Source: Polyangiaceae bacterium
Lineage (GTDB): Bacteria > Myxococcota > Polyangia > Polyangiales > Polyangiaceae
Reading direction: 5' to 3'
DNA length: 16,730 nucleotides
NCBI GenBank assembly: GCA_025936205.1
Contig: JAICTU010000170.1
Coordinates: forward strand, 1-16,730
In this document: piece by piece, positions 3,001 to 16,730 of the stretch
Layout of the letters: the number at the start of each line of letters is the position of its first letter
Numbering within the stretch: the stretch's first letter is position 1
Made by a program: the position numbers and the translations under genes
Notes under the pieces: model-generated
What the model saw: only the letters and a program-made list of their open reading frames with translations
Told to the model about the DNA's origin: nothing
Databases searched by the model: none

Positions 3001-3759
3001 CTATTCCTTCTCGTCGTCGAGGCTGTTCGGCGGAGCCGGTGGGGGCGCGGGCAGCGCGGCCAGGCCCGCCGTGGTCGTGAACGTCAACGTCGTGCCAAAA
3101 CTCGCCCGGTCGTAGTTTTCAGCACCCTTGTCCGCCGTACGCGAACCGGGCGTGTTGTCCTTGTGTCGGACCAGCAGGCCGTAGGTACCCTTCCACGGCA
3201 AGCTGAACTTGACCTTGCCGGCCGCATCGCTGTGGGCCTGCCGAGACCAGCCTGATGCAGCGGTCAGCGTCAGCTCCGCTGCGGCGAGAGGCGCGCCACG
3301 GAAGAAGACCTGAAACTCGCCGAGCGTGCCCGTTGGGACGATATCCAGTACCAACTTGGGAGTCTGTGCGGCCCAGCTCCCCACGATGCGCGCCGCCGGT
3401 GTCCAGGCCGTGCGGATCGGCTTGTCACCTTCCTTGCTTTCGAGCAGCGGGTACGCGGCATCGACGACGATCAGTGATTCACCCTTGGCAGGCCGCCCGG
3501 CAATCGCGTAGCCATCGCGCTGCTTGGTGATCGTCAGAGCCTTCTCAGCTGACGCCGTCAGCAGGGTCGCGCTCGGCCGGGCCAGCTGATCCAGATAGCC
3601 GGGCGACACCTCATGCAGGTTGTCACCGAATTCCCCAAAGTAGAGCTTTGCGCCGCTCGCGTCCCGTTCGATCCACACCTGGTGCGCTGCGGCGCTGATC
3701 GAAAGCGCCAGCGAGAGGATGACCGAGGTGAAGCCTGCACGGGGCAAACGGCATTGCAT
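3001..3759 (-). CDS. Periplasmic DUF4198-type protein
   Basis: A 252-residue exported protein. The N-terminus carries a signal peptide with core FTSVILSLALSISAAA, probably cut before HQVWIERD. The start of the mature protein (HQVWIER, then AKLYFGEFGDNLHEVSPGYLDQL) and the later beta-rich part (ELTLTAASGWSRQAHSDAAG, then KFSLPWKGTYGLLVRHKDNTPG) fit the DUF4198 family. That family has Ig-like beta domains and often occurs near metal or iron uptake genes. The C-terminus is a Pro/Ala-rich tail ending in DDEKE. The ATG at 3759 has GGTGAG just upstream. The gene is divergent from the YceI gene. A sigma70-like promoter overlapped by a Fur-box-like palindrome sits in front of it, suggesting iron repression. 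A role in metal handling is inferred from family and operator; no binding residue can be named. Confidence 0.78.
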   Translation of the reverse strand: MQCRLPRAGFTSVILSLALSISAAAHQVWIERDASGAKLYFGEFGDNLHEVSPGYLDQLARPSATLLTASAEKALTITKQRDGYAIAGRPAKGESLIVVDAAYPLLESKEGDKPIRTAWTPAARIVGSWAAQTPKLVLDIVPTGTLGEFQVFFRGAPLAAAELTLTAASGWSRQAHSDAAGKVKFSLPWKGTYGLLVRHKDNTPGSRTADKGAENYDRASFGTTLTFTTTAGLAALPAPPPAPPNSLDDEKE

Positions 3760-3795: not shown

Positions 3796-3824
3796 ATCTA
3801 ATTGCTACTGGCTATCATTTTCAA
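3796..3824 (-). promoter_or_regulatory. Sigma70-like promoter of the DUF4198 gene
   Basis: On the minus strand TTGAAA (complement of 3819-3824) is separated by exactly 17 bases from TTAGAT (complement of 3796-3801). This is a good -35/-10 pair, with the expected transcription start about 30 bases before the ATG at 3759. The stretch is clearly more AT-rich than its surroundings. Confidence 0.55.
3809..3823. promoter_or_regulatory. Fur-box-like operator in the DUF4198/YceI spacer
   Basis: TGGCTATCATTTTCA matches 10 of the 14 specified bases of the Fur 7-1-7 consensus TGATAATnATTATCA. It overlaps the -35 and spacer of the DUF4198 promoter and lies 27 bases before the YceI start codon, so one bound repressor could cover both divergent genes. 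The site was judged by eye; no Fur gene is in the window. Confidence 0.45.
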
Positions 3825-3850: not shown

Positions 3851-4372
3851 ATGCCGAAATACGATGAGAGTCAGGCCGAATGCCTGGTGTTCACCTTCAA
3901 AGAAGGTCTGCTGTCGAAGGTCGCTCACGACCTGAAGATCCGCGTCACGCGCTTCAGCGCCGATGTCACGTCCGACTCGGTGCGAGCGGAGTTCGATCTG
4001 CGTTCCCTGCGGGTGGTCGAGGCCATGAAAGAGGGCAACGAAAACCCGGGAGCGCTCTCCGACGCAGACAAAGCCAAGATCGCGGAGCAAATCAGCAACG
4101 AGGTGTTGCACGCCGGGCAACACCCAACGGCCGTGTTCAGGTCGCGCTCGATCACGACGCGTCCAGACGGCGGTTACAGCATCGCAGGCGAGCTATCGCT
4201 GCACGGAGTCACGCAGCCGATTCGAGCCGAGACTCGCTCCGAGGGCGGTCGCCAGGTGGCATCCATCGAGTTGCACCAGCCGACGTATGGCATCACGCCC
4301 TTCAAGGCGATGATGGGCACGCTCAAGGTGAAGGCGGACGTGATCGTCCGCTTCAGCGTACCCTCGAGCTGA
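3851..4372 (+). CDS. YceI-family lipocalin-like protein, cytosolic form
   Basis: A 173-residue protein of the YceI family, beta-barrels that bind long amphiphiles such as polyisoprenoids. Family features are AECLVFTFKEGLLSKVAHDLKI near the start, RAEFDLRSLRV, a Lys/Ile helix region with EVLHAGQHPTAVFRSRSI, then YSIAGELSLHGVTQPI and the closing strand YGITPFKAMMGTLKVKADVIVRF. The ATG at 3851 was chosen because AGGAGA (3841-3846) lies four bases upstream; a longer in-frame extension to 3719 would run through the promoter region. No signal peptide is present, unlike E. coli YceI, so it is probably cytosolic, as in many myxobacterial paralogues. It is divergent from the DUF4198 gene and shares the Fur-box-like spacer. 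Ligand unknown. Confidence 0.88.
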   Translation: MPKYDESQAECLVFTFKEGLLSKVAHDLKIRVTRFSADVTSDSVRAEFDLRSLRVVEAMKEGNENPGALSDADKAKIAEQISNEVLHAGQHPTAVFRSRSITTRPDGGYSIAGELSLHGVTQPIRAETRSEGGRQVASIELHQPTYGITPFKAMMGTLKVKADVIVRFSVPSS

Positions 4373-4440: not shown

Positions 4441-6345
4441 TCAGGGGATCTCGAAGCGCTGCCGCACCACCGCCGTCTTGGCGCCGTTGAACGCGGGCAC
4501 TTTGGCGCGCCGGAACAACATCTGGATGCAGGCGGCGGCCTCACTGTTTTCAAAGCCCGCCGTCACGATCGTCACGGACGCCACCTTGCCCGAGGGCTCG
4601 TACGTCACTTGCACGGTACCCGAGCCGCTCGGACCACCGATGGGGCGGCAGTTCTTGGCCTGCTCCGCCGCGGCGGAGAGTGCGGTTTGCGCCGCCTGGC
4701 GGTCGAACGTGCTACCCGCTTCGGAGGCCGCGCTGGCTGCCTCGCGCTCCGGCTCCACTCGAGCGGTCTCCTTCACTGCGCGGCGCTGCTGCCGGGCCTC
4801 CACGGCCGCCGCGCGTCGGGCCGCCCATTTGGCACGGCGTGCTGCGCGGTCTTCCTTGCCGGAGCGCGCGGAAGCGCCGGAAGTGGACCCCGGCTCCTTG
4901 GCATCGGCCGCATCGCTCGAGCCCTGATCGCCCGAAGCAGCCTTGGCTTCGTTCGCGCCTTCTTTGGCCGCTCCGTCCTTCGTGGCAGAAGCAGGATCGG
5001 ATTCGGCCACCGCGGCCGCGGGCTTCTCCGCGGCGGCGGTCACCGCATCGCCCGAAGTAGCCGCGGGCTCGGTGGCGGCCCCAGGCGCGGCTGGCTCTCG
5101 ACCCTTGGCCTCCGTAGCCGGGGAACTGGCTGCCGGCAAATTGGCTGCCGGCAAATTGCCTGCCGGCAAATTGGCTGCCGGGGAACTGGCTGCCGGGGAA
5201 CTGGCTGCCGGCAAATTGCCTGCCGGCAAATTGGCTGCCGGCAAATTGCCTGCCGGATGCAAGGCTAGCGTGCTGGTGGATGCGATCGCCGGGCTGGGCT
5301 CGGCATGCAGGGCCGGGCTCGCGGGGGTCCCCGATTCGAAGACGCCCGCGCGGATCAAGCCATACGAAGTGCCGACCAGGGCCAGCGCGGCTGCCGCTCC
5401 CTGGGCAATGAGCCCCCGCCAGGGGCTCGAGCGCTTGCTCGCCGCGGGGCCGAGATCGAGCGCGACAGAAGTCGCCGTGTCCACGCGCCGAGCGGGAGGA
5501 GCACCCTCAGCATCGAGTGCCGGTGCCCCAAACTCCGACCTCGCATCCGGGGACATCGCATCCCGAGACATCGCATCCCGAGACATCGCATCCCGAGACA
5601 TCGCATCCCGAGACATCGCATCCCGAGCTGAAGAGCTCGAGCGCTCCGGGCGGGTGCGAGGTTCGATCCGAGGCGGCGGTGGAGAGACGCCGAGCGAACG
5701 AGCGCCGCTCGCTGGAACCGAGGCTGCGCTGGGCGAAGAGCCGAGAGCCCGTGCACTCGCGGCCGATCCGCGTGCGAGCGGGGCGATCGGTGCTGGGCTG
5801 GCCGCAGGCCGACTGGCGGTTGGACGACTGGCCGTCGGCGGGAGGCGCGGTGGCGGCGGCGATGGGATGGCAGGCACCGTCCGCTTCGCCGGGGGGGCAG
5901 CCGGCGGTGGAACGAGCGGCCGTGCAACACCGGAACTGGGTTCAACCGCGAGAAGGGCCACAGCCGGGGCCCCCTCCGCAGCAGCGGCCAGGTCCACTTC
6001 GGCGAGCGGCGTCCAGGCGCCCATTCCATTGCGCCAGACGCGCGCCGCCGGGGGCAACGTACCCGCGTCACGCTCCGCTGCGAGTTGCGCCGTGGACAGG
6101 CGACGGCGATCGTGGGCGCTCGTCTGCACCATCCACTCGCCGTCGTCGAGCGGCGCGTCCATCTGCAACGTGACGACATCATCGTCCTCGTCGCCATCGT
6201 CGGTGTACGGCCCCACCGCGATCTCATCCGAGCTCACCTCGAGCGAGTCGGAGCTCGGCGCACGCACTTCGCGCTCCTGCTCCGGCGAAGCCGAGGCTGA
6301 CTCTTCTGCGGGGGACGCCTGATCTTGGGCTAGAGATTCTTTCAC
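4441..6345 (-). CDS. AgmX/GltJ-like protein: GYF_2 domain, one membrane helix, AgmX/TonB-like C-terminal domain
   Basis: A 634-residue envelope-spanning protein. An acidic N-terminus (about 1-68) is followed by a GYF_2-type domain at about 70-118 (EWMVQTSAHDRRRLSTAQL, VWRNGMGAWTPLAEV). Next come a Pro/Ala/Ser-rich linker, five RDAMS pentapeptides (241-265), one membrane helix (about 311-332, GLIAQGAAAALALVGTSYGL), a periplasmic PA[AG][NS][LS] pentapeptide array (364-408) and a charged Ala/Lys/Arg region. It ends in an AgmX_C/TonB-like fold at 547-634 (FDRQAAQTALSAAAEQAKNC, SGSGTVQVTYEPSGKVASV, ACIQMLFRRAKVPAFNG). In Myxococcus, AgmX (GltJ) works in gliding and focal-adhesion assembly; its N-terminal zinc ribbon is not visible here. 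The GTG start has AGGT seven bases upstream. Motility is inferred from domains only; many myxobacterial paralogues have other, unknown roles. Confidence 0.85.
   Translation of the reverse strand: MKESLAQDQASPAEESASASPEQEREVRAPSSDSLEVSSDEIAVGPYTDDGDEDDDVVTLQMDAPLDDGEWMVQTSAHDRRRLSTAQLAAERDAGTLPPAARVWRNGMGAWTPLAEVDLAAAAEGAPAVALLAVEPSSGVARPLVPPPAAPPAKRTVPAIPSPPPPRLPPTASRPTASRPAASPAPIAPLARGSAASARALGSSPSAASVPASGARSLGVSPPPPRIEPRTRPERSSSSARDAMSRDAMSRDAMSRDAMSRDAMSPDARSEFGAPALDAEGAPPARRVDTATSVALDLGPAASKRSSPWRGLIAQGAAAALALVGTSYGLIRAGVFESGTPASPALHAEPSPAIASTSTLALHPAGNLPAANLPAGNLPAASSPAASSPAANLPAGNLPAANLPAASSPATEAKGREPAAPGAATEPAATSGDAVTAAAEKPAAAVAESDPASATKDGAAKEGANEAKAASGDQGSSDAADAKEPGSTSGASARSGKEDRAARRAKWAARRAAAVEARQQRRAVKETARVEPEREAASAASEAGSTFDRQAAQTALSAAAEQAKNCRPIGGPSGSGTVQVTYEPSGKVASVTIVTAGFENSEAAACIQMLFRRAKVPAFNGAKTAVVRQRFEIP
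5117..5256. repeat. 15-bp tandem repeat coding for PA[AG][NS][LS] pentapeptides
   Basis: Nine 15-bp units lie head to tail (5117-5251) with a partial tenth. There are three variants: GCCGGCAAATTGGCT, GCCGGCAAATTGCCT and GCCGGGGAACTGGCT. Read on the minus strand they code for PAANL, PAGNL and PAASS. The array sits in the predicted periplasmic linker of the AgmX-like protein. The ordering of variants suggests duplication of multi-unit blocks. Confidence 0.93.
5552..5626. repeat. 15-bp tandem repeat coding for RDAMS pentapeptides
   Basis: Five identical copies of GACATCGCATCCCGA run from 5552 to 5626, preceded by a degenerate copy at 5537-5551. On the minus strand they code for five RDAMS pentapeptides followed by PDARS, in the cytoplasmic linker of the AgmX-like protein. 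Perfect identity points to recent expansion. Confidence 0.95.
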
Positions 6346-6866: not shown

Positions 6867-8333
6867 TCACACGGTCCCGCGCCGCGCTTCCAGCTGCGCC
6901 CGGATCTGGTGCATGCGCTCGCGGGTCAGGGGGAAGAACTGCACCAGCACCAGCGCCGCGACCAGCGCTGCGACCGGGATACCGGTGAACAGGGCGCGCA
7001 TGGTGAAGATCGCCTCCGCAGTCTGATTGCCGCCCAGCTTCGCATCGAAACCCGAGAGACGATCGAGCAGCGGCCCCAGAATCAGCATGCTGACGGACAT
7101 TCCGAACTTCAGCACCCAGGAGAATACCGAGGAGTAGGCACCTTCGCGGCGCTGCTGGCTCTCCAGCTCATCGTAGTCCACCACGTCGATGCACATCGAA
7201 GGCAGCACCACCCAGAGCCCCGTCGCCGAGAAGCCGTTGAGCCCCGCCTGCGCCACGCTCCCCCAGGGATGCGCGGGATTGTACAACCACCAGCTGGAGC
7301 CGAACGCGATGACGCCGCACAGCAGGGTGCAGGTGAGCGCGATCGGCTTGCCAAAGCGCTTGGCGAGCCCCGCGGCCACCGGCACGCCGGCTACGCCGCA
7401 ACCGGCATAGGCAACGCCGCCCCAAAAACCAAAGCTGGACTGCACCGCCAGGTCACCGTGAAACACGTAGTAGGTGCTGACATACCAGCCGAGTGTGTTG
7501 ATCATGCCCGTGGGGATGGCATAGACGAGCGCCGTGCCGAGCAGCACCAGATAGGGCTTGCAGGTGAAGGTGGAGCGGATCATGTCCTTCACTCGGACCT
7601 TGGACTGCGTGCGCGCCTTTTCGTAGTAGCGCTCGCGTACGAACACGAAGTTCGCGATGCCGGAGACGATCATGACCGCGCCGGCGATCGCGGTGGCGTA
7701 GACGGCTCCGCGCAGCGTGTCGATCTTGCCGGTGACGGGATCCTTGAACAGATCCTGGTTGGCAAACCACCAACCAGCGGCGATCAGCATCCCCGCGACC
7801 TTCTGCACCACGGCTTTCCAGGACAGAACGGCCGTGCGCTCGTTGTAGTCGGGAGTGAGCTCCGCTCCGAGGCTCTGGTACGGCATGTTGTATGCGCTGA
7901 TCAGCGGCGCGTACAGACTCGCCGAGATGATCATGAACCAGAAGATGCCGTTCGGGCTCCAGCTCGGCGATGCCATGAACAGGCAGGGCAGTGCGAGGCC
8001 CGCCAGGACCGAGCCAAACAGGATGTAGGGGCGCCGCCGGCCCCAGCGCGAGCGCGTGTTGTCCGAGACCCAGCCGAAGAGCGGGTCCGTGAAGGCATCG
8101 ATGAAACGGCTGAAGCCGAGCGCCAGGCTCACCTGGCTGGGCGAGAGCCCCAAGAGCACGTTGTAAACGCGGTTGGAGAAGTCGTTGTAAAGCCAGTGTC
8201 CAAAGATGTCCGTGGTGCCGCCGAGCGCATAGGCCGCCTTGGCCTCCAGCGGGACACGATCGGAAGGCGCCTTCCCCGCCTCTCCTGCCTCGCTCGCTGG
8301 CGCGTCTCGCACGTCAGACGTCAGCGACGTCAT
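6867..8333 (-). CDS. GPH-family (MelB-type) sugar:cation symporter
   Basis: A 488-residue inner-membrane transporter of the MFS_2 / glycoside-pentoside-hexuronide:cation symporter family, with about 12 hydrophobic segments. The family signature is clear: GFSRFIDAFTDPLFGWVSDN, then TRSRWGRRRPYILFGS. D79 and D83 match in spacing the MelB cation-site aspartates D55 and D59. The helix IV segment reads YNMPYQSLGAELT, where Asn takes the place of MelB D124. NERTAV and the later DVVDYDELESQQRREGAY block (family DYDE..tG.R.EG) also fit. A 30-residue hydrophilic N-terminus precedes helix I. The ATG at 8333 has GAGGTGAG just upstream. It stands alone, with gaps of several hundred bases on both sides, so the substrate cannot be guessed from neighbours. 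Confidence 0.92.
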   Translation of the reverse strand: MTSLTSDVRDAPASEAGEAGKAPSDRVPLEAKAAYALGGTTDIFGHWLYNDFSNRVYNVLLGLSPSQVSLALGFSRFIDAFTDPLFGWVSDNTRSRWGRRRPYILFGSVLAGLALPCLFMASPSWSPNGIFWFMIISASLYAPLISAYNMPYQSLGAELTPDYNERTAVLSWKAVVQKVAGMLIAAGWWFANQDLFKDPVTGKIDTLRGAVYATAIAGAVMIVSGIANFVFVRERYYEKARTQSKVRVKDMIRSTFTCKPYLVLLGTALVYAIPTGMINTLGWYVSTYYVFHGDLAVQSSFGFWGGVAYAGCGVAGVPVAAGLAKRFGKPIALTCTLLCGVIAFGSSWWLYNPAHPWGSVAQAGLNGFSATGLWVVLPSMCIDVVDYDELESQQRREGAYSSVFSWVLKFGMSVSMLILGPLLDRLSGFDAKLGGNQTAEAIFTMRALFTGIPVAALVAALVLVQFFPLTRERMHQIRAQLEARRGTV

Positions 8334-8741
8334 GCGCTCACCTCACGTGCGGCGGACAGCACGGAACACCCGCAGGGCGCGCGGGCAGGACATCGATCGG
8401 AAACGACAGCCATGGGACCTCTGGATTGATCTCGGCGGGTCCGCCCGGCGGCGCGGCATGCGCCGGAGCAGACCCCTCGCACCTTGCGACTCATACCAAA
8501 GTGCTTGGCTACGAACCAGGCATCGCGCGAACGGCGCTGCACGTCGGATTGGCGCCGCGCAGCATTCTTCCGCAGAAAAATCCTGCACGAGGACGGTCTG
8601 TGCCGCTTCGGCGTGCCGAGTGGGACCATGTGCGCCGGTCACGCGCCGGATTGCCCCAGACCCGCAGCGCGTGCCGAACAGGTTGCGTGGTGGAAGCACT
8701 GCCCTGTCATTTTCCACTTTCGTGGTTGAGTGCTGCGACGC
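8334..8741. other. Intergenic gap upstream of the symporter gene
   Basis: This 408-base stretch lies between the symporter start and the stop of the cytochrome c lipoprotein gene. Open frames on both strands have arginine/alanine-rich compositions typical of shadow frames. No RNA gene, array or clear hairpin was found. It should hold the symporter promoter, but no convincing -35/-10 pair was seen. Confidence 0.45.
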
Positions 8742-9095
8742 CTAAGGCGCCCGGCTCGCGGCGCCGAGGTAGCGCAGGATGTCGCGCTGCTCCTCCGGGG
8801 TCAGCCGGACTTGATGCTGAGTTTGCATGCGCTGCACCTCGAGCGGCCACGCCTCGGGAGAGTGCTCGTTCGGCGCACGCAGCGCATGGCAGCTTCCGCA
8901 GCGCTGGATGTACGTGGTGCGCCCGCGCTGCAGGTCTTCGAGCGACAGGTCCGGTTCGGTCGCGCGCGCCGCGGCCAGCTGCCCCGGAGTGGCTTCGGGG
9001 AGCGCTGACACACAGGCAACTGAGGCGAGCGCACTCGAAGCCATCACCCCAAGGGCGAACAGCATCCGGCGCCGAAGGCACAACTGAACCAGCAT
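8742..9095 (-). CDS. Monohaem cytochrome c lipoprotein
   Basis: A 117-residue small electron carrier expected to be membrane-anchored in the envelope. A signal sequence (RRRMLFALGVMASSALASVAC) ends in a lipobox-like SVAC giving lipidated Cys28. A single haem c motif CGSCH lies at 66-70, and Met90 in WPLEVQRMQTQ is a candidate sixth ligand. The ending LTPEEQRDILRYLGAASRAP is the usual last helix of small class I cytochromes c. The ATG at 9095 has AGGAG at a suitable distance (complement of 9100-9104). The gene is divergent from the di-haem DUF1111 gene with an 126-bp spacer containing a Fur-box-like site, so it may be its electron partner; that is inference. Confidence 0.88.
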   Translation of the reverse strand: MLVQLCLRRRMLFALGVMASSALASVACVSALPEATPGQLAAARATEPDLSLEDLQRGRTTYIQRCGSCHALRAPNEHSPEAWPLEVQRMQTQHQVRLTPEEQRDILRYLGAASRAP

Positions 9096-9172
9096 GAAAC
9101 TCCTAATATTCCAAAATCATTCGAAGAACCAGAGACGCCCCGGCGCGGTGGCGCGCTCGCCTGGCCCGCGGG

Positions 9173-9178
9173 TAGAAT
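9173..9178 (+). promoter_or_regulatory. Possible -10 element of the di-haem/imelysin operon
   Basis: TAGAAT fits a sigma70-type -10 box (consensus TATAAT) and lies 44 bases before the chosen ATG at 9222. The sequence upstream is GC-rich and has no clear -35 match. The adjacent Fur-like site would then cover the transcription start. Confidence 0.35.
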
Positions 9179-9180
9179 AT

Positions 9181-9195
9181 TGCGAATCATTGTCA
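9181..9195. promoter_or_regulatory. Fur-box-like operator before the di-haem/imelysin operon
   Basis: TGCGAATCATTGTCA matches 11 of the 14 specified bases of the Fur consensus TGATAATnATTATCA. It lies directly downstream of the -10-like TAGAAT and upstream of the AAGGAG ribosome binding site, a classical repressor position. Iron-dependent control also fits the DUF1111 and imelysin families. No experimental or matrix score is available. Confidence 0.6.
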
Positions 9196-9221
9196 TTTCC
9201 ACTAAGGAGAAAGCGGCTTAC

Positions 9222-10526
9222 ATGCTCGCCACGGTGTTGATGGGTCGCGTACGATTTGCAGGTGCCGGCGCGGTAGCGCTGTTGAGCTGGGCTTCGATCG
9301 GCTGCTCGAGCTCGGAGGAACCCGAGGACGGGAACGCCACGAGCACGGTGCAGGTTCGAACCAGCACAGTGGACGTGTTCGACGGCCCCATCGCCGGGAT
9401 TTCGGCGCAGCTGGAGGCGGGCTTCAACGACGGCGATCTGCTGTTCGGCACGCCGCTGCGCGCTGCCGACGGCCTGGGCCCGTTGTACACGCGGAGCTCG
9501 TGCGACGCCTGCCACGCGGCAGGCGTGCGCGGACCGGGTCTGGTTTCCAAGATGTCCGTGGTCGAGGCGGACGGCGTGACGCCCGCTGCCGATCAGTCGA
9601 TGCTCGCGTTCGGTCACACCGTGCACCCGCTGGGGGTGGCCGGGCTGAATGGCTCGGGGCTCAAGCCGACGCCCATCCTGCCGCCCGAGGGCCAGCCCAA
9701 CGTGAAGGTCACGACGCGTCTGGGGCCCCCGGTGATCGGGCGCGGCTACATCGAGGCCATCGCGGACAGTGAGATCGAGCGGGTGGAGGCCGAGCAGGCT
9801 GCGCGCGCCGACGGTATTCACGGCCGCGTGAACCGCGTCGCGTACGCGTCGGAGCCGAACGAGGACACCAGCTTTCACACCTATCAGAAGGGCGAGACGG
9901 TGATCGGGCGCTTCGGGTTGAAGGCGCGCGTGGCCACGCTGGATGACTTCACCGCGGACGCCTTCCAGGGCGATATGGGCATCACCAGCCCGCTGCGTCC
10001 CGTCGAGTTCGCCAACCCCGATGGGCTCACCGACGACGACAAGCCTGGCGTGGACGTCGACTATCGCAGCGTGAACCTGCGCGCGACGTACATTCGGCTG
10101 CTGGCGATCCCCGCTCGCAACACGAGCGCGCAGGGAGCTCAGCTGTTCGAGTCCACGCAGTGCTCGGCCTGTCATATCCCTGCCCTGCGCACACGCAGCG
10201 ACTACCCGATCCCCGAGCTCGCAGGGGTAGACGCGGAAGTGTACACGGATCTGTTGCTGCATCGCATGGGCAACGATCTCGCCGACGGCCTGCCCTCCAA
10301 CGCCAGCGTCGACGGCGAGGCTGACTCCTTCGAGTGGCGCACCGCGCCGTTGATCGGCCTGCGTTTCAACCGCACCTTCATGCACGACGGCCGCGCCAAG
10401 ACGATCGAGGAAGCCGTGCTGGCACATCGCGCGGAAGGCTCGGAAGCCAACGGCGTGGTGGACCGGTTCGAGGCGCTCGCCGGCGCCGACCGCGCAGCTC
10501 TGTTGGAGTTCGTCGAGGCACTCTGA
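9222..10526 (+). CDS. Di-haem DUF1111/DHOR lipoprotein (peroxidase-like)
   Basis: A 434-residue envelope lipoprotein of the DUF1111 di-haem oxidoreductase family, related to MauG/cytochrome c peroxidase folds and often mis-named thiol oxidoreductase. The lipobox is SIGC (Cys28). Haem c motifs are CDACH (94-98) and CSACH (314-318). Family blocks are GPLYTRSSCDACH, GPPVIGRGYIEAI, YTDLLLHRMGNDLADG, EWRTAPLIGL and FMHDGRAKTIEEAVLAH. In other bacteria the family occurs with imelysin in Fur-regulated loci, where roles in periplasmic iron redox or uptake are proposed but not settled. ATG 9222 was chosen over an upstream TTG at 9180 because that TTG lies at the promoter/Fur-like site and AAGGAG (9204-9209) precedes the ATG; ATG 9240 is also possible. 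Imelysin follows after 150 bp. Confidence 0.92.
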   Translation: MLATVLMGRVRFAGAGAVALLSWASIGCSSSEEPEDGNATSTVQVRTSTVDVFDGPIAGISAQLEAGFNDGDLLFGTPLRAADGLGPLYTRSSCDACHAAGVRGPGLVSKMSVVEADGVTPAADQSMLAFGHTVHPLGVAGLNGSGLKPTPILPPEGQPNVKVTTRLGPPVIGRGYIEAIADSEIERVEAEQAARADGIHGRVNRVAYASEPNEDTSFHTYQKGETVIGRFGLKARVATLDDFTADAFQGDMGITSPLRPVEFANPDGLTDDDKPGVDVDYRSVNLRATYIRLLAIPARNTSAQGAQLFESTQCSACHIPALRTRSDYPIPELAGVDAEVYTDLLLHRMGNDLADGLPSNASVDGEADSFEWRTAPLIGLRFNRTFMHDGRAKTIEEAVLAHRAEGSEANGVVDRFEALAGADRAALLEFVEAL

Positions 10527-10556
10527 GCGCCCTGCCAGTACTCCTCGAGCACACTT

Positions 10557-10601
10557 TCATTCCAGGCCCTCTCATTCGAGGCCCTCTCATTCGAGGCCCT
10601 G
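10557..10601. repeat. Three tandem 15-bp units in the DUF1111-imelysin spacer
   Basis: Three head-to-tail units lie at 10557-10571, 10572-10586 and 10587-10601: TCATTCCAGGCCCTC, then TCATTCGAGGCCCTC, then the same ending in G. They are non-coding, starting 31 bases after the DUF1111 stop. They may be a simple slippage array or a binding site. Confidence 0.9.
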
Positions 10602-10676
10602 CGGGCGATCGGCGCGCCCCCTTAGCGGCCAGGTTCTGAATCTCCCGGGACCGAATGCCCGGATTGCTTGAAAGAC

Positions 10677-11744
10677 ATGACGATGAAATCGACTACTTTT
10701 GCTTTGATTGCGCTCACGCTCGCTGTTCCTGCTTGCTCCAGCGATGATAAGGAGGGCAGCGCTGCAGATGCCGAGTACCAGCAAAAAGTGGTGACGGGCA
10801 TGCACAGCGCGCTGCTCGCAGATGTGAACGCGCTGCACGACGCGGCCGTGGACATCCAGGCGGCGGCGCCCACGCCGGCAGGTCGCGGCTGGGACGCTAC
10901 CCAGGACGCAGCGGCGATCAGCCGGATGACGGACGCCTGGTTGCGGGCGCGCGCCGCGTACGAGCGGACCGAGGGAGCCCTCGCCCCGCTCTTCCCGGAT
11001 ACTGACGCGGCCATCGACGCTCGCTACGAAGACTTCCTCGAGGGCGTGACCGGCGGTGACCAGGACCTGTTCGACGGGACCGGCGTGACCGGCATGCACG
11101 CGATCGAGCGCATCATCTTCGCGCAAAAGATTCCGGCGTCGGTGATCGAGGTGGAGAAGTCTCTGCCCGGCTACAAGGCTGCCGCCTGGCCCTCGAGCGA
11201 GGCCGAGGCGCGCGCCTTCAAGAACGAGCTCTGCGCGCAGCTGGTGACGGACACCCAGGATCTCGCCGATCAGTGGCAGCCGCAGGTGATCGATCTCGAC
11301 GGCGCGTTCAATGGTTTGATCTCGCTGATGAATGAGCAGCGCGAGAAGGTGAACAAGGCGGCCAGCGAGGAAGAAGAATCGCGCTATGCCCAGCGCACCC
11401 TGGCAGACCTGCGCGACAACCTGGCGGGCACCACCCGTATCTATGCGCTGTTCAAGGACTGGTTGCTGACCAAGTCGGACGGTGCGAAGATCGACTCCGA
11501 CGTGGAAGCTTCCTTCAGCGCCCTGGATACGACCTACAAGAGCTTCTCGGGAGACGCCATCCCAGCTCCCTCCGCGACCTGGAGCTCGGAAAAGCCCTCC
11601 GCCGCCGACCTGCAGACGCCCTTCGGCAAGCTGTACACGGCCGTTCAGGATGCCGTGGATCCCAACGTCAGCGGCTCCGCGGTGGACGGTATGAACCGCG
11701 CCGCTCGCGAGCTGGGCTTTCACGAGTTTGCCGAAGAAGAATGA
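10677..11744 (+). CDS. Imelysin (M75) family lipoprotein
   Basis: A 355-residue exported lipoprotein of the imelysin/ICMP/IrpA family, named after an insulin-cleaving protein but now linked to iron uptake (as in EfeO). The signal sequence MKSTTFALIALTLAVPAC ends in a lipobox lipidating Cys20, followed by SSDD. The family GxHxxE signature is present as GMHAIE (139-144), preceded by AWLRARAAYERTEGAL and GTGVT. The body is predicted helical (two bundles). ATG 10677 or ATG 10683 could start the protein; both give the same signal peptide, and the Shine-Dalgarno is weak (GAAAG). The stop overlaps the next gene's start as ATGA, showing translational coupling. The family was not seen to need catalytic protease residues, so a metal-binding role is preferred. 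Confidence 0.9.
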   Translation: MTMKSTTFALIALTLAVPACSSDDKEGSAADAEYQQKVVTGMHSALLADVNALHDAAVDIQAAAPTPAGRGWDATQDAAAISRMTDAWLRARAAYERTEGALAPLFPDTDAAIDARYEDFLEGVTGGDQDLFDGTGVTGMHAIERIIFAQKIPASVIEVEKSLPGYKAAAWPSSEAEARAFKNELCAQLVTDTQDLADQWQPQVIDLDGAFNGLISLMNEQREKVNKAASEEEESRYAQRTLADLRDNLAGTTRIYALFKDWLLTKSDGAKIDSDVEASFSALDTTYKSFSGDAIPAPSATWSSEKPSAADLQTPFGKLYTAVQDAVDPNVSGSAVDGMNRAARELGFHEFAEEE

Positions 11745-12319
11745 ACCGCGCGATCGCCCTAGCTTTCATTGTCGCAACGAGTTCGGCGGCCCTGAGCTGC
11801 GGCGGCGATGCTGGTGATGACAACGCCACCACCTGCGCCGTGAGCGTGCCGGCGGTGGCGGACGGTCCCGCGCCGACGCCGTTTCTGGCCTTCGCACAGC
11901 ACTTTCACGGCTATCACTCCTGGCCGAAGTTCGACACCAGCGAGGATGCCGACCTGGTCGGCATCCACGACGGCAGCACGGTCACCGAGTACATCAAGCA
12001 GCCCCCGGCGAGCGGCAGCAGCGAGTTTCCGGTCGGAACCCTGATCGTGAAGGAGGCGACGGGCGGGACCATTCCGCACGAGATCTTTGGCATGGCCAAG
12101 CGCGGCGGAAGCTTCAACAGCGCTGCTCCGGGCTGGGAATGGTTCGAGCTGGAGAATCTGGAGTGCCCGGATGATCGGGTGAAGCTGATCTGGCGAGGGG
12201 TCGGACCGCCGCTCGGTGAAAACTATGGCGGCGATCCCAACGCGGGATGCAACACGTGCCACACCGACTGCGGCAACGACGGCGTGTGCGCGAAGGCGCT
12301 CTCGCTGAGCAACTTCTGA
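11741..12319 (+). CDS. Cytochrome P460-like haem c lipoprotein
   Basis: A 192-residue protein, probably a lipoprotein (signal ALAFIVATSSAALSC, Cys20). The body resembles the cytochrome P460 fold: FPVGTLIVKEATGGT, then IFGMAKRGGSFNSAAPGWEWFELE, and a C-terminal haem c motif GCNTCHTDC (CNTCH at 170-174). In known P460 proteins the same layout (fPdGtvivKE, gWgW.., CxxCH near the end) carries a c-type haem with an extra Lys crosslink; Lys residues are present but I cannot assign the crosslink. Two further cysteines (DCGNDGVC) directly after the haem site are unusual. The ATG overlaps the imelysin stop. Family members can oxidise hydroxylamine or handle NO; here an electron-transfer or iron-redox role in the operon is inferred. 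A remote domain match rather than a confirmed family member. Confidence 0.7.
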   Translation: MNRAIALAFIVATSSAALSCGGDAGDDNATTCAVSVPAVADGPAPTPFLAFAQHFHGYHSWPKFDTSEDADLVGIHDGSTVTEYIKQPPASGSSEFPVGTLIVKEATGGTIPHEIFGMAKRGGSFNSAAPGWEWFELENLECPDDRVKLIWRGVGPPLGENYGGDPNAGCNTCHTDCGNDGVCAKALSLSNF

Positions 12320-12372
12320 GGCCAAATTCCCGTCGCCTTCGCTGCAGCTCTGGCTGTAGTGTGCGCCCCGCC

Positions 12373-13215
12373 ATGTCCCGTCGTTCTGCTTTTCGTTTGC
12401 CGCGTGCTGCCCTGCCCTCTGTGACGCTGGCTGCTGCTGTCGTCGCCTGGGCGGCGGCCGCCAGCGCCAATCCGCGCCCCTTGCCCTTCAGCTATCAGCA
12501 CGAGCAGATCGCGAAGGGTGCGGCAGAGCTCGAGCAATATGTCGATTTCACACCGGTGCGCGCGCGGGACGCCAGCAGCCCGGACCCCCGCTGGTACGGG
12601 CTGACGCAGTTCGCCACCGAGTTCGAATATGGCCTGACGGATCGACTCGAGCTCGGGCTGTACGTCACTTACGCGCCGGCCGCGTCGAGCGGCTTCGCGG
12701 AAATCCCTTCCCCGCCGGACGGCAACGGCATGAAGCAACGCTTGCGCTTCAAGCTGGCCGAAACTGGTGAATGGCCGATCGATGTCTCGCTGTACGGCGA
12801 GGCCGTGGAGAACGAGCGCGAGGTCGAGCTGGAGGCCAAGGTCATCCTGCAGCGCCGCTTCGGAATGGCCCGACTCATCGCCAACGCGAGCGCGGAGCAG
12901 GAGTTCTATTATGACGGCAAGCACGACCTCGTGCTCAATCCGTCCGCTGGGCTCACGTTCGAGCTGAGCCCGACGATCCAGCCTGGTATCGAATGGTGGA
13001 TGCGCGCCGAGTATCCGCTGGAAAACCCACCCGATCCGCGTCCGTTCGAGCTCGGTCCTCATCACTACGTGGGACCTGCCGTGCTACTGCAGTTTGGAGC
13101 GTTGTGGTGGACGACGGGCGTCTACTTCCGGCTCAGCGACACCTCGCATACGATGGCGATCGGCGAGAGCTTCGGCGGGATCTGGGCGCGCTCGGTGCTA
13201 GGTATCGAGCTCTGA
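12373..13215 (+). CDS. Outer-membrane beta-barrel candidate
   Basis: A 280-residue exported protein not recognised as a named family. The signal peptide (VTLAAAVVAWAAAASA) is probably cut before NPRPLPFSYQHEQIAKGA. The rest is rich in alternating amphipathic strands with many Tyr/Trp, for example FATEFEYGLTDRLELGLYVTYA, WPIDVSLYGEAVENEREVEL, PSAGLTFELSPTIQPGIEWWM and LQFGALWWTTGVYFRLSDTSH, with short charged turns. That is the look of an outer-membrane barrel. It ends in SVLGIEL, not the usual terminal Phe. ATG 12373 was taken because the signal peptide starts there; the in-frame extension to 12247 overlaps the P460-like gene. It lies 53 bp after that gene with no clear ribosome site, so it is probably the last operon member. 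Confidence 0.78.
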   Translation: MSRRSAFRLPRAALPSVTLAAAVVAWAAAASANPRPLPFSYQHEQIAKGAAELEQYVDFTPVRARDASSPDPRWYGLTQFATEFEYGLTDRLELGLYVTYAPAASSGFAEIPSPPDGNGMKQRLRFKLAETGEWPIDVSLYGEAVENEREVELEAKVILQRRFGMARLIANASAEQEFYYDGKHDLVLNPSAGLTFELSPTIQPGIEWWMRAEYPLENPPDPRPFELGPHHYVGPAVLLQFGALWWTTGVYFRLSDTSHTMAIGESFGGIWARSVLGIEL

Positions 13216-13225
13216 GGAGCCAGTA

Positions 13226-13258
13226 GGAGAACCCGAAGTCCGCGCCGGGTTTCTCTCC
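13226..13258. terminator. Hairpin between convergent transcription units
   Basis: GGAGAACCCG (13226-13235) can pair with CGGGTTTCTCTCC (13246-13258) as a stem of about nine pairs with a bulged T and a ten-base loop. It lies 11 bases after the barrel-gene stop, with convergent genes on both sides. There is only a short AT-rich tail (AAATGTAG) rather than a U-tract. Confidence 0.4.
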
Positions 13259-13322
13259 AAATGTAGCGGAAATACCGAGTGCAGAGTGCCGCATCTGCCG
13301 GCACGAACCTGGGCACGAGGCA

Positions 13323-14216
13323 CTAGCGCTGCGCGGGCGACGCAGCGGGGCACCCCACCCGCTGCTGCGACACCACGACCTCGTCGATCCAGAGATTCTG
13401 GTCGTTCTCCGGTTCTTGGTAGCGCTCCCAGCCCAGGTACAGGCTCTGAAACGCCGGCGGTGCCAGCCACCGGCCCTGCAGGTCATCGCCGAGGCAGCCC
13501 GATTCGGGACCGCTGCCGTGGTCCACGACGCGCAGATCGCTCAGCTCGTTGCCGTCGAGCCAGAACTCCATCTCATTGTTGGCAACCGCGAAGTGCCACT
13601 CGACGCAGGCCCAACGCTGCACCGGCAACTGAGCCGCCGAATGCTGCCAGCAGTCGGTGTGCTTGGGCGGAGTGGTCTCGAAGTTCGCCATCAGGCCCAA
13701 ACCCTGCTGATGCTGGCCGCCGTAGCGGTAGAGCGAGTTGAAGCTGTCATCGCGCGAGCGCCCCTCGCCTTGCACGAACGTCCAATGCACGTCGGGCTTT
13801 CCGGAGGGCGTGATGGGGGCGGCATCGAGCCACATCATCGCGCGCCCGTACATTTCGGAGGCGGCAGCGGGAAACACCGGCTTCTGATGGATGGCGAAGT
13901 ATCCACGGCGATACGCCGCGCCCTTCGGCGCGAGCACGTGCACCGCTCGAGCCCCGCTGAAGGCATGCTGCTCGTCGACGCGCACGCTGGCGCCGCTGCT
14001 GCCGGTCTCGTCACGCCAGGGCGCACCCGGCGCCTGGCCGACGCCGTCGTCCTCGAAGCCGTCGCAGAACAACGCCGGCGCTGGACAATCCCCTGGCACT
14101 GGCGCAGCGGACGAGCTGGTGTTGCCGGGAGGATGGGGTGAACCCGCAGGGGCGGCACTGTGCGAACAGGCCAGCGCCAGAGGTAGCAGCGCGAGCCAGA
14201 ACTTCCGAGTCTGCAT
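13323..14216 (-). CDS. Jelly-roll-like lipoprotein, paralogue 2
   Basis: A 297-residue lipoprotein: signal MQTRKFWLALLPLALAC with lipidated Cys17, then a short Pro/Ser/Gly linker. The globular part begins with CPAPALFCDGFEDDGVGQAP and continues with FPAAASEMYGRAMMWLDAAP, VHWTFVQGEG, YRYGGQH, LMANFET, WACVEWHFAVANNEMEFWLDG and RWLAPPAFQSLYLGWERYQ. It is predicted beta-rich. The order of blocks (YRYGGQH, WACxEWxFAVAxNExxFWLDG) suggests a concanavalin-like/jelly-roll fold, and possibly the Cip1/polysaccharide-lyase-like group. That is low-confidence inference without any catalytic residue assigned. It is a tandem paralogue of the gene at 14241, 24 bp away. The ATG has only a weak Shine-Dalgarno. 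Probably surface or periplasmic, carbohydrate-related. Confidence 0.75.
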   Translation of the reverse strand: MQTRKFWLALLPLALACSHSAAPAGSPHPPGNTSSSAAPVPGDCPAPALFCDGFEDDGVGQAPGAPWRDETGSSGASVRVDEQHAFSGARAVHVLAPKGAAYRRGYFAIHQKPVFPAAASEMYGRAMMWLDAAPITPSGKPDVHWTFVQGEGRSRDDSFNSLYRYGGQHQQGLGLMANFETTPPKHTDCWQHSAAQLPVQRWACVEWHFAVANNEMEFWLDGNELSDLRVVDHGSGPESGCLGDDLQGRWLAPPAFQSLYLGWERYQEPENDQNLWIDEVVVSQQRVGCPAASPAQR

Positions 14217-14240: not shown

Positions 14241-15233
14241 TCAGGGCGCCGGGCAGCCGAGACGTTCGGTCGACACGGCGACCGCGTCCAGCCAGATCCG
14301 GATGTCGCCGGACCATGCCTGGTAGTGCTCCCAACCGAGCAACAGGGTGTCGAACGCGGGCGGCGCCAGCCACTGCCCGTTCAGATCGTTACCTCCGCAG
14401 CCCTCGCCACGGTCGATGACGTGGATGTCCTGGACCTCTGTGCCATCGAGCCAGAACTGCATCTCGTTGGTCGCGACGGCAAAGCGCCACTCCGCACAGG
14501 CCCACTTGCCCGTGGGCACCACCGTCTCGGAGTGATCCCAGCAGTCCGTCTTGACGTTATTGCTGGTCTCGTAGTTGGCCATCAAGCGACCGGTACCGTG
14601 CTGTCCACCGTAGCGGTAGTCGGCGTTGTGCGTCCCATCCGCCGCGGGACCTTGCGCCTGGATCATCGTCCAGTGCACCTCGGTCGGTGCTGCTTCCAGC
14701 CAGATCATGGCGCGCCCGTACATCTCGCTCGCCGCCGCAGGAAAAATCGGCGAGCTGCTGCCTAGGCCGATGAAGGCGCGCCGATAGTTGGGGCCGTTTG
14801 GAGCGCTGGCCAGCACGGCCTTGCTGCCGCTGAAGGCGTGCGTCGAGTCCACCGCGACGCTGCCGGCGTTGGTGCTGGCGCTCCAGGGCGCGGCCGGTGG
14901 CTGCCCCACGGCATCTTCCTCGAAGTCGTCACAGAAGAGCGCGCCCGCGGGGCACGTGACCGCGCTGCTTCCCGCGCCGCCCAGCCCGCCCGACCCCGCT
15001 GCGCTGCTGCCAGCGCTGCCGCCGCTCGCCGCGCCGGCGCTGCCCGCAGAACCGGCCGCAGCAGAGTTGCCCGCGCTGCCGGGCACTCCAGCAGAGCCGC
15101 CGGCTCCGCCCAGCGCCGCTGCGCCATCACCGCTATCGCCCGTGCAGGCGTTGAGTCCCGCCGCGCACATGCTGCAGATGCACATCCTCTGGATCAACAA
15201 CAACGCCCGCAATCGTTCCAATCCTTTAATCAC
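14241..15233 (-). CDS. Jelly-roll-like lipoprotein, paralogue 1 (GTG start)
   Basis: About 330 residues from the GTG at 15233. That start gives VIKGLERLRALLLIQRMC and a lipobox-like LNAC (Cys30), and it overlaps the upstream stop as GTGATTAA. The frame itself extends to 15341, and an ATG at 15263 also lies in it, so the start is uncertain. A Gly/Ala/Ser-rich linker of about 65 residues follows, then the same globular module as the downstream paralogue: PAGALFCDDFEEDAVGQPP, FPAAASEMYGRAMIWLEAAP, VHWTMIQAQG, YRYGGQH, WACAEWRFAVATNEMQFWLDG and WLAPPAFDTLLLGWEHYQ. Two cysteines near each end recur in both copies. Role unknown; the long linker suggests a domain held off the membrane. Confidence 0.75.
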   Translation of the reverse strand: MIKGLERLRALLLIQRMCICSMCAAGLNACTGDSGDGAAALGGAGGSAGVPGSAGNSAAAGSAGSAGAASGGSAGSSAAGSGGLGGAGSSAVTCPAGALFCDDFEEDAVGQPPAAPWSASTNAGSVAVDSTHAFSGSKAVLASAPNGPNYRRAFIGLGSSSPIFPAAASEMYGRAMIWLEAAPTEVHWTMIQAQGPAADGTHNADYRYGGQHGTGRLMANYETSNNVKTDCWDHSETVVPTGKWACAEWRFAVATNEMQFWLDGTEVQDIHVIDRGEGCGGNDLNGQWLAPPAFDTLLLGWEHYQAWSGDIRIWLDAVAVSTERLGCPAP

Positions 15234-16730
15234 AGTTATCGCCGTCTGCTCGCTCGCAGTCATCGGAGGAAGAGCACTGCACCCGCGTGAGACCCCCATC
15301 GTCGCAGGTGAGTAAGATGTCGTCCTGGCAGCGATCGCCATCGACGAAGCCCGTGCCCACGCCGTTGCAGAACTCCAGCGTGTCGCCCGAGCAGCGCGGG
15401 GTTCCCGGGTTGCAACCGCAGTTGCCTGCGCCAGTACAGGTCAAGCCATCGCCGCAAGCTTGTGTCGCTCCCAGAGTTCCGCCCGAACACTGGCGGAAGC
15501 CATTGCCGCTGCAGACGCGTTGGGTCCCCGCGCATTCGTTGCACAGCCCGCGCGCGGTGTTGCAGCCATTGGCCCCGCATCCGCTCTGAGTGAGCTGCCC
15601 GAACGTGGAGCAACTGAACTGGGTGGCTCCCGAGCAGTCGCTGGCGCGATTGAGGGGAGTAAAGCTGCGACCGTCGTTACAGCGGGCGATGATGCCGCCA
15701 TTGCAGCGGTACGAGCCGACGGTGCAAGTGATGCACTGCCCGGTCGGGCTGTTGCAACCGAGCGGGCAAGGTGTCTGAGGGCCGAAGAAGTTGCCCGTGA
15801 TCGAGCAGACGCGGCTCGCGTCGAGCAAGGGCGTGCACTCTTGCCTGCCCGGAAAGCAGAAGTCGCAACGCCCGCGCACGGCGCTGCACAGCTCGGGGCG
15901 CAAGCAGGCCGCGCCCACGGGCTGGAAGCCCGTGCGACCTGGGTTGCACGTCTGCAGCTGAGCGCTGCCGAAGCAGTCGAATTGATTGACCGCGCATTTC
16001 GCTGCGTCGCACCGCACGTCGGACGGATCCGAGTCGTTACAGAGCTGAGGCGTGGCGCAGGGCTCGCCTTCCGGCCGGAAGCCGGTGCGATCGTCGAGAC
16101 AGACCTCGATCTGGGCGCCATTGCAGCGCCGATCGCCCGCCTCACACGCGACGTCGTTGCACTTCGCGTTCACCGGATCGCAGAACTGCGGCCCGGCGCA
16201 GGTTTCCTGCGTGTCGTATCCAGTGCGATCGATACGACAGCCCTTCAGCACTCCATCGGGCGTGCAGATGTGCGAGCCGATATCGCACGCCGGCGTCGCG
16301 CACGCCGGCGGCACCGCCGAGCGCCCCAGCTCGCACAGCGCGGCGGTCGCGCACTGACTGACGGGCTCCCAGTCCGTCCGGCCCGCGTTGCAGCGCTCGA
16401 GCCCGGTGCCGGTGCAGCGACTTTCGTTCTCCTGGCAGGGCGGGATCTGGCACGCGCAGCTGGCCCCGGACCCTCCGCAGGCGCTCAGACCGGCGAGGCA
16501 CAGATCCGGCGTGGCGCAAGTGGACAGCGTCTCCCAGTCCGTCGCGTCGCTGTTGCAGCGCTGCATCTGGCCCTGGTTGCAGCGCATCTCGCCGGCCTGG
16601 CAGGGCGCCGCCAGACAGCACGGGCCGGGGCCGTTGCAGCTGCTCGTGCTGGTGGAGCAGTGAGCGGCGGACATGCATGCCGACAACGTGGTCCAGGCGT
16701 CTCCGGCGGCGTTGCAGAGGCGCGGCGTCG
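15226..16730 (-). CDS. Cys-rich tandem-repeat protein (5' end outside window)
   Basis: The visible 500 residues are the C-terminal part; the frame stays open to the right edge, so the N-terminus is missing. The protein is made of about nine or ten repeats of roughly 40-60 residues. The pattern is RCNG..lerCn..rt.W.....CATp.LC.....C.....C..g, for example RCTGTGLERCNAGRTDWEPV and RRCNGAQIEVCLDDRTGFRP. Each carries several cysteines, likely disulfide-bonded outside the cell. Repeats decay in regularity towards the C-terminus. An internal TTG at 16686 opens a shorter frame but repeat sequence continues before it, so it is not the start. Such repeat proteins are typical of Polyangia surface or secreted proteins; no function is assigned. 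Its stop overlaps the GTG of the next gene. Confidence 0.85.
   Translation of the reverse strand, partial: TPRLCNAAGDAWTTLSACMSAAHCSTSTSSCNGPGPCCLAAPCQAGEMRCNQGQMQRCNSDATDWETLSTCATPDLCLAGLSACGGSGASCACQIPPCQENESRCTGTGLERCNAGRTDWEPVSQCATAALCELGRSAVPPACATPACDIGSHICTPDGVLKGCRIDRTGYDTQETCAGPQFCDPVNAKCNDVACEAGDRRCNGAQIEVCLDDRTGFRPEGEPCATPQLCNDSDPSDVRCDAAKCAVNQFDCFGSAQLQTCNPGRTGFQPVGAACLRPELCSAVRGRCDFCFPGRQECTPLLDASRVCSITGNFFGPQTPCPLGCNSPTGQCITCTVGSYRCNGGIIARCNDGRSFTPLNRASDCSGATQFSCSTFGQLTQSGCGANGCNTARGLCNECAGTQRVCSGNGFRQCSGGTLGATQACGDGLTCTGAGNCGCNPGTPRCSGDTLEFCNGVGTGFVDGDRCQDDILLTCDDGGLTRVQCSSSDDCERADGDNCD

Follow-up and report, generated by a model that had tools for sequence, protein, structure and literature searches.

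A modular haem-protein and imelysin gene set of Myxococcota with a possible role in iron acquisition at the outer membrane

Results

Five genes around one M75 protein

The stretch of DNA analyzed here, called the window throughout, comprises 16,730 nucleotides (66.7% G+C) of contig JAICTU010000170.1 from a Polyangiaceae bacterium. At 8742–13215 it carries five genes that an initial annotation, made from the sequence alone, had described as a Fur-linked, haem-rich iron module: a di-haem oxidoreductase (DHOR, also DUF1111), an imelysin-like M75 protein, a P460-like cytochrome, an outer-membrane barrel candidate, and a divergently transcribed monohaem cytochrome c. Open reading frames, motifs, and family matches confirm the five genes, and the encoded proteins do contain four haem c motifs around a single M75 protein. 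The features are as follows.

8742..9095, minus strand: monohaem cytochrome c, probable lipoprotein (CGSCH; family scan); homologues or similar small haem proteins lie directly behind the barrel family in relatives
9176..9194, plus strand: Fur-like box, 14/19, in the spacer between the DHOR and cytochrome genes, 27 bases upstream of the DHOR start
9222..10526, plus strand: DHOR/DUF1111 di-haem oxidoreductase, probable lipoprotein (CDACH, CSACH)
10677..11744, plus strand: M75 imelysin-like probable lipoprotein (HxxE; H141, E144)
11741..12319, plus strand: probable lipoprotein with a cytochrome P460 fold (CNTCH; K104 aligned with the cross-link lysine)
12373..13215, plus strand: predicted 12-strand outer-membrane β-barrel (structure prediction)

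The M75 stop codon overlaps the P460 start codon (ATGA), and gaps of 150 and 53 bases separate DHOR from M75 and P460 from the barrel gene, respectively. The DHOR–M75 gap holds a 15-base repeat of 2.9 copies (10557–10600). Judged by eye, a signal-like stretch is followed by a cysteine in a loosely lipobox-like setting in DHOR, M75, P460, and the cytochrome, and a lipobox pattern is present in 32 of 42 DHOR, 36 of 46 M75, and 44 of 55 P460 genes of the window and its relatives. These proteins are probably anchored as lipoproteins. Both haem motifs of DHOR are retained in all 38 aligned sequences, the window's included.

In the PDB, the M75 protein matches EfeM, Algp7, and EfeO (E 5e-6 to 1e-4); against the NCBIfam EfeO equivalog it scores 59.9 bits, below the cut-off of 270. 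In EfeM, metal site III has His126 and Glu129, and metal site IV includes Glu90, Glu93, Glu97, Asp103, and Asp107, according to the EfeM paper (PMC9174327). Residues H141, E144, E96, E99, D110, and D114 of the window protein align with His126, Glu129, Glu90, Glu93, Asp103, and Asp107, and each of these six positions is conserved in 42 to 44 of the 44 sequences, counting that of the window (for the HxxE site, His in 43 and Glu in all 44). Four of the five site IV residues are thus kept, the counterpart of Glu97 being the one that is not. The lipobox-like cysteine, C20, is present in 42 of the 44 sequences.

The predicted model of the P460-like protein has the fold of cytochromes P460 and c′-β (predicted local distance difference test score 77), with a CxxCH motif at its C terminus. 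A wider profile (A2) finds McP460 in the PDB at E 2.5e-4 (best domain 0.007). Foldseek alone gave no P460 match at E ≤ 0.001, a profile of close relatives found none in the PDB, and the window protein scores 15.8 bits against Pfam PF16694, below its gathering cut-off of 27. At E ≤ 0.01, 18 of the 39 A2 members match PF16694, and the window protein is not among them. K104 aligns with Lys78 of McP460, the cross-link residue listed in Table 2 of PMC11928373, and the position is Lys in 40 of 53 sequences and Arg, His, Glu, or Thr in the other 13. The lipobox-like cysteine is nearly invariant in the alignments.

A DHOR–M75–P460 core with an exchangeable outer-membrane partner

Relatives were sampled from 377 genomes of the phylum to which genome G002 belongs. 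The M75 search, which scored no more than five candidates in any genome, gave 26 matches in 24 genomes, and the flanks of these loci hold DHOR in 23 and P460 in 22. DHOR is missing from L036, where the contig ends, and from L039 and L056; P460 is missing from L047, again at a contig end, and from L054, L056, and L057. P460 matches occur in 34 of the 377 genomes; 23 of these are among the 24 with M75, and 11 are not. The order DHOR–M75–P460–barrel is as in the window in G459, G458, G464 (L146, L147, L152), and G374 (L040), and G002 (L039) has M75–P460–barrel. The barrel gene of G374 is followed by one for a small CGACH protein, which brings all five kinds of part together; this protein gave no match to the window cytochrome in a search at 1e-4. 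Among public proteins, the P460–barrel pair is found at consecutive locus tags (QM756_32705/32710 and ACOY0T_19150/19155).

Variations on this order are also seen. P460 directly follows DHOR in L148, with no M75 between them, and in G001 (L038) DHOR–M75 is flanked by two P460 genes (2025–2654 and 5243–5758). In L032, DHOR and M75 are separated by a gene for a LolA-like lipoprotein carrier (9990–10637). An apparent M75–P460 fusion in L035 is a single open frame, but its linker is unlike either protein, and we did not count it as a fusion.

The slot behind P460 is occupied by the window's barrel family in the window and five relatives, by another protein (cluster 3) in eight loci, and by a TonB-dependent receptor in L043 and L179 (Pfam E 3e-35 and 3e-34). 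The cluster 3 protein was read as porin-like from its sequence, and its L044 copy has no Pfam match. Other loci have no such outer-membrane gene after P460. Because the contents of this slot vary across loci, an outer-membrane protein is often present there but can be exchanged for another. The common core is DHOR–M75–P460. The set as a whole is modular, not a single fixed system of five genes. The expectation that the five genes travel together is therefore only partly upheld: the four-gene order recurs in four genomes, whereas the barrel–cytochrome pair usually lies elsewhere.

The barrel and its monohaem cytochrome

The outer-membrane barrel candidate of the initial annotation is predicted to have 12 strands. 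Its family has matches at 64 places in 60 of the 377 genomes; 52 of these places, three loci from a gene-order search, and the window make up the 56 loci examined. In 31 of the 56, a small lipoprotein-like open reading frame with one CxxCH motif lies within 400 bases on the same strand, always downstream of the barrel gene, and the same test on 85 control genes of similar length (in loci with gene calls) found none. Four more barrel loci (L206, L213, L225, and L226) have a small cytochrome that was seen only in a separate survey. In an alignment of these 31 cytochromes and that of the window, a residue located some 20 positions beyond the haem motif is, by a count made by eye, Met in 21 and His in 11 of the 32 sequences, and this residue may be the sixth ligand of an electron-transfer haem.

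The neighbors of the pair include the ferrous iron genes feoAB. The order is FeoA–FeoB–barrel–cytochrome in G256 (L189) and barrel–cytochrome–one gene–FeoA–FeoB in G010 (L202). In G464 (L238) the order is FeoB–small gene–FeoA–cytochrome, in surroundings that by eye resemble those of L189, and the barrel of this genome is located in the DHOR operon, not with the Feo-side cytochrome. The Feo–barrel–cytochrome arrangement of G256 and G010, set against the split one of G464, suggests that the barrel gene may have moved from a Feo locus into the DHOR operon in this lineage. Elsewhere, the barrel precedes imelysin–DHOR–imelysin, the classic arrangement, in G177 (L190). The L044 operon is followed by genes for FMN_bind and membrane proteins, and homologues of these adjoin the barrel in eight loci, seven of which have an ApbE homologue as well.

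Fur-like boxes and iron genes in the neighborhood

Boxes were scored against a 19-base Fur consensus. The box at 9176–9194 is the best plus-strand match in the window (14/19) and lies between the divergent cytochrome and DHOR genes, 80 bases from the cytochrome start. Of 100 windows simulated from its dinucleotide frequencies, one reached a score of 14 on one strand, and the window has no match to the full consensus with three or fewer mismatches. Boxes of at least 13/19 on either strand lie upstream of 19 of 40 DHOR genes, window included, versus 16 of 676 control genes that have no homologue in the window (Fisher P 3e-17, uncorrected for relatedness). Boxes precede 12 of the 270 controls whose G+C is the same or lower, and 2 of 46 M75 genes. 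Some of the 16 boxed controls are divergent neighbors that have a box in common with DHOR (for example, gene 5 of L147), and the 16 also include the PepSY gene of L151. A one-strand count on different gene calls gave boxes upstream of 12 of 22 DHOR genes and of 9 of 313 others.

Genes for iron handling stand beside parts of the set in several relatives. FeoAB is present in L176, L189, L202, and L238, a Fur-family regulator in L034 and L192, and PepSY_TM in L151; in L044 the operon is followed by FMN_bind and ApbE, an order that homologues repeat in L046. The Fur link and iron context first proposed for the window are supported by these neighbors together with the boxes before 19 of 40 DHOR genes.

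Discussion

We propose that the set is a Fur-repressed outer-membrane iron-acquisition module of Myxococcota with haem redox chemistry, in which iron is most likely reduced, and we give this proposal, built on sequence comparison, a probability of about 0.55. It is based on the EfeM-type residues of M75, the Fur-like boxes, the TonB receptors and barrels, and the FeoAB, PepSY, FMN_bind/ApbE, and Fur-family genes, each found in some of the loci. The 12-strand barrel would provide passage through the outer membrane, and the M75 lipoprotein would capture the incoming iron. DHOR, the P460-fold protein, and the monohaem cytochrome, with its putative Met/His sixth ligand, could then change the oxidation state of the iron or its carrier, most likely by reduction, perhaps as parts of one complex that passes electrons toward the metal. 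The Fe(II) might then be imported by FeoAB or another ferrous transporter whose genes lie outside this set. Repression by Fur would mean that the module is switched on under iron shortage, probably.

A more tentative extension, which we regard as doubtful, is that barrel and cytochrome act together as a redox gate in two pieces at the outer membrane, a functional counterpart of Cyc2 for iron assimilation, joined here to the M75–DHOR core with a P460-type protein recruited from nitrogen-oxide to iron chemistry. The fused cytochrome-porin Cyc2 likewise links a monohaem c-type cytochrome to an outer-membrane barrel in a setting concerned with iron, but the window has two separate genes and 12 strands rather than 16 (PMC8406198). 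The motif AxPxFAR[QK][TY], which lies upstream of CxxCH in Cyc2 according to the same source, is absent by eye from the window cytochrome. The outer-membrane channels FapF and COG4313 differ from the window barrel in their partners and are about 9% identical to it.

Several observations weigh against the acquisition proposal. At the threshold of 13/19, 21 of the 40 DHOR genes have no box, and the box statistic overstates independence because of the relatedness of the loci. No iron permease or TonB system was found among the window proteins scanned against protein families, which are not all of its open reading frames. M75 occurs without P460 in L054, L056, and L057, and 11 of the 34 P460-bearing genomes have no M75 match, although seven of these P460 matches are weak (E 2e-5 or weaker). 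In the 50 barrel loci L186–L235, each spanning about 6 to 8 kb or reaching a contig end, imelysin and DHOR are found only in L190, so that the barrel and its cytochrome are mostly found apart from M75, DHOR, and P460; FeoAB adjoins two of the 50 (a short, weak FeoB match in L206 being left out). No cytochrome was seen in the eight barrel loci next to FMN_bind genes, and in the closest genomes, G458 and G459, its homologue lies elsewhere with no recognized iron gene nearby. Finally, some P460 genes adjoin phosphatase-like genes, neighbors that match none of the readings considered here.

The proteins could also work in the opposite direction. By analogy with EfeB, DHOR, and perhaps P460, would use peroxide to oxidize Fe(II) to Fe(III) at the outer membrane, with M75 holding the Fe(III) and peroxide and iron being kept from reacting with each other. 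DHOR is annotated as a putative peroxidase, imelysins are described as almost always found with EfeB- or DUF1111-type peroxidases (PMC3143127), and uptake-coupled oxidation is considered in the EfeM paper (PMC9174327). On the other hand, no EfeU/FTR1 partner is present among the scanned window proteins, and the partners identified in relatives (FeoAB, PepSY, and ApbE/FMN_bind) are ferrous or reductive; PepSY-type clusters with ApbE have been linked to iron reduction and Fur repression (PMC8238504). Because the recognizable partners are of these types, we prefer reduction over oxidation, at roughly 60 to 40, and consider the peroxide-driven scheme as formulated here rather unlikely.

Alternatively, DHOR might act as a MauG- or MbnH-like maturation enzyme that modifies M75 or assists the lysine–haem cross-link of P460, iron binding being dependent on that modification. 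The MbnH/MbnP pair offers an analogy for such a role. DHOR has weak matches to TIGR03791 (MauG) and CCP_MauG, the former at 19.5 bits against an equivalog cut-off of 443.85, and formation of the P460 cross-link is peroxide-dependent (PMC11928373). However, L054 and L057 have DHOR and M75 with no P460, and the cross-link lysine is replaced in 13 of 53 sequences, and we judge this scheme improbable. Even less probable to us is that P460 acts on hydroxylamine or NO and that the operon guards the envelope against nitrosative stress, its link to iron being merely regulatory. The predicted P460/c′-β fold, the kept lysine position, and the hydroxylamine oxidation carried out by known P460s (PMC11928373) speak for it, whereas the frequent company of this protein is an M75 with metal-site residues and Fur-like boxes, and typing of 30 proteins of relatives identified no nitrogen-oxide gene.

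The iron-acquisition proposal builds on systems that are already known. Imelysin and DUF1111 operons under Fur, PA4370–PA4373 of Pseudomonas and VC1264–VC1266 of Vibrio, bear out the statement that the two families are partners in Fur-regulated loci (PMC3143127). These operons have M75 beside a DUF1111 di-haem protein, a Fur link, no EfeU, and a proposed outer-membrane location. The window likewise has M75 beside DHOR, a putative Fur link, and a proposed outer-membrane location, and no EfeU was found among its proteins scanned. The known operons contain two imelysins, whereas the window has one M75 protein nearer to EfeO/EfeM and adds the P460-fold protein, the barrel, and the monohaem cytochrome. 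The EfeUOB/M transporter has an M75 protein with HxxE and acidic metal-site residues and an adjoining haem protein (PMC9174327), but in the window no permease is seen, DHOR takes the place of a DyP peroxidase, no cupredoxin domain was found, and P460 and barrel are added. The PepSY/ApbE flavinylation clusters are likewise extracytosolic redox genes tied to iron and Fur, some with TonB receptors (PMC8238504), and two relatives carry FMN_bind and ApbE behind the operon; the window differs in having haem proteins and M75 instead of a flavinylated carrier, with no ApbE among the proteins scanned. Cytochromes P460 and c′-β have in common with the window protein the fold, the C-terminal CxxCH, and the lysine aligned with Lys78 of McP460 (PMC11928373), but the window protein is a probable lipoprotein from an iron-type operon of Myxococcota and falls below the Pfam cut-off.

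The core of the set is thus explained by known imelysin–DUF1111 operons, and the additions are the P460 protein, the barrel, and the cytochrome. That the set had looked undescribed holds for the whole and not for this core. A literature search with most subscription journals outside its coverage found no paper joining cytochrome P460 and imelysin. Judged from titles and the beginnings of abstracts, there was also none on this gene set, no search having been aimed at the barrel–cytochrome pair. The P460 review mentions neither imelysin nor any word starting with "myxo" (PMC11928373), and the flavinylation survey mentions neither imelysin nor cytochrome P460 (PMC8238504). The absence of a visible TonB receptor, also claimed at the outset, agrees with the window proteins scanned, but two relatives carry such a receptor in the slot of the barrel.

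For imelysin and DUF1111 proteins, the recurrent P460-fold and barrel–cytochrome additions give concrete partners to test. If the proposal is correct, P460 proteins, known for hydroxylamine oxidation (PMC11928373), would be placed in iron uptake. The barrel–cytochrome pair recurs in many of the sampled Myxococcota genomes, twice beside FeoAB.

Other features

Phosphatase-like genes (PhoX, PF04185, and PhoD) near P460 or the operon are found at 7428–9251 of L150, 9129–10622 of L178, and 3245–4312 of L146; a gene near the L146 operon first taken for ApbE is PhoD-like by Pfam and was not used. In the window, neither an Rfam match nor a tRNA was found, and the interval 8700–13400 has no sigma-70-like promoter and one terminator-like site, versus 2.6 in shuffled sequences. 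A second Fur-like site (14/19, minus strand, 3804–3822) lies between the divergent genes for DUF4198 (3001–3759, minus strand) and YceI (3851–4372, plus strand); DUF4198 is described as common in PepSY/ApbE clusters (PMC8238504). The neighboring genes 13323–14216 and 14241–15341 each encode a Cip1-like (PF21340) domain. A large open reading frame on the minus strand (4441–6345) has 15-base tandem repeats at 5117–5256 and 5537–5627 and a tail with a weak AgmX/PglI-like match.

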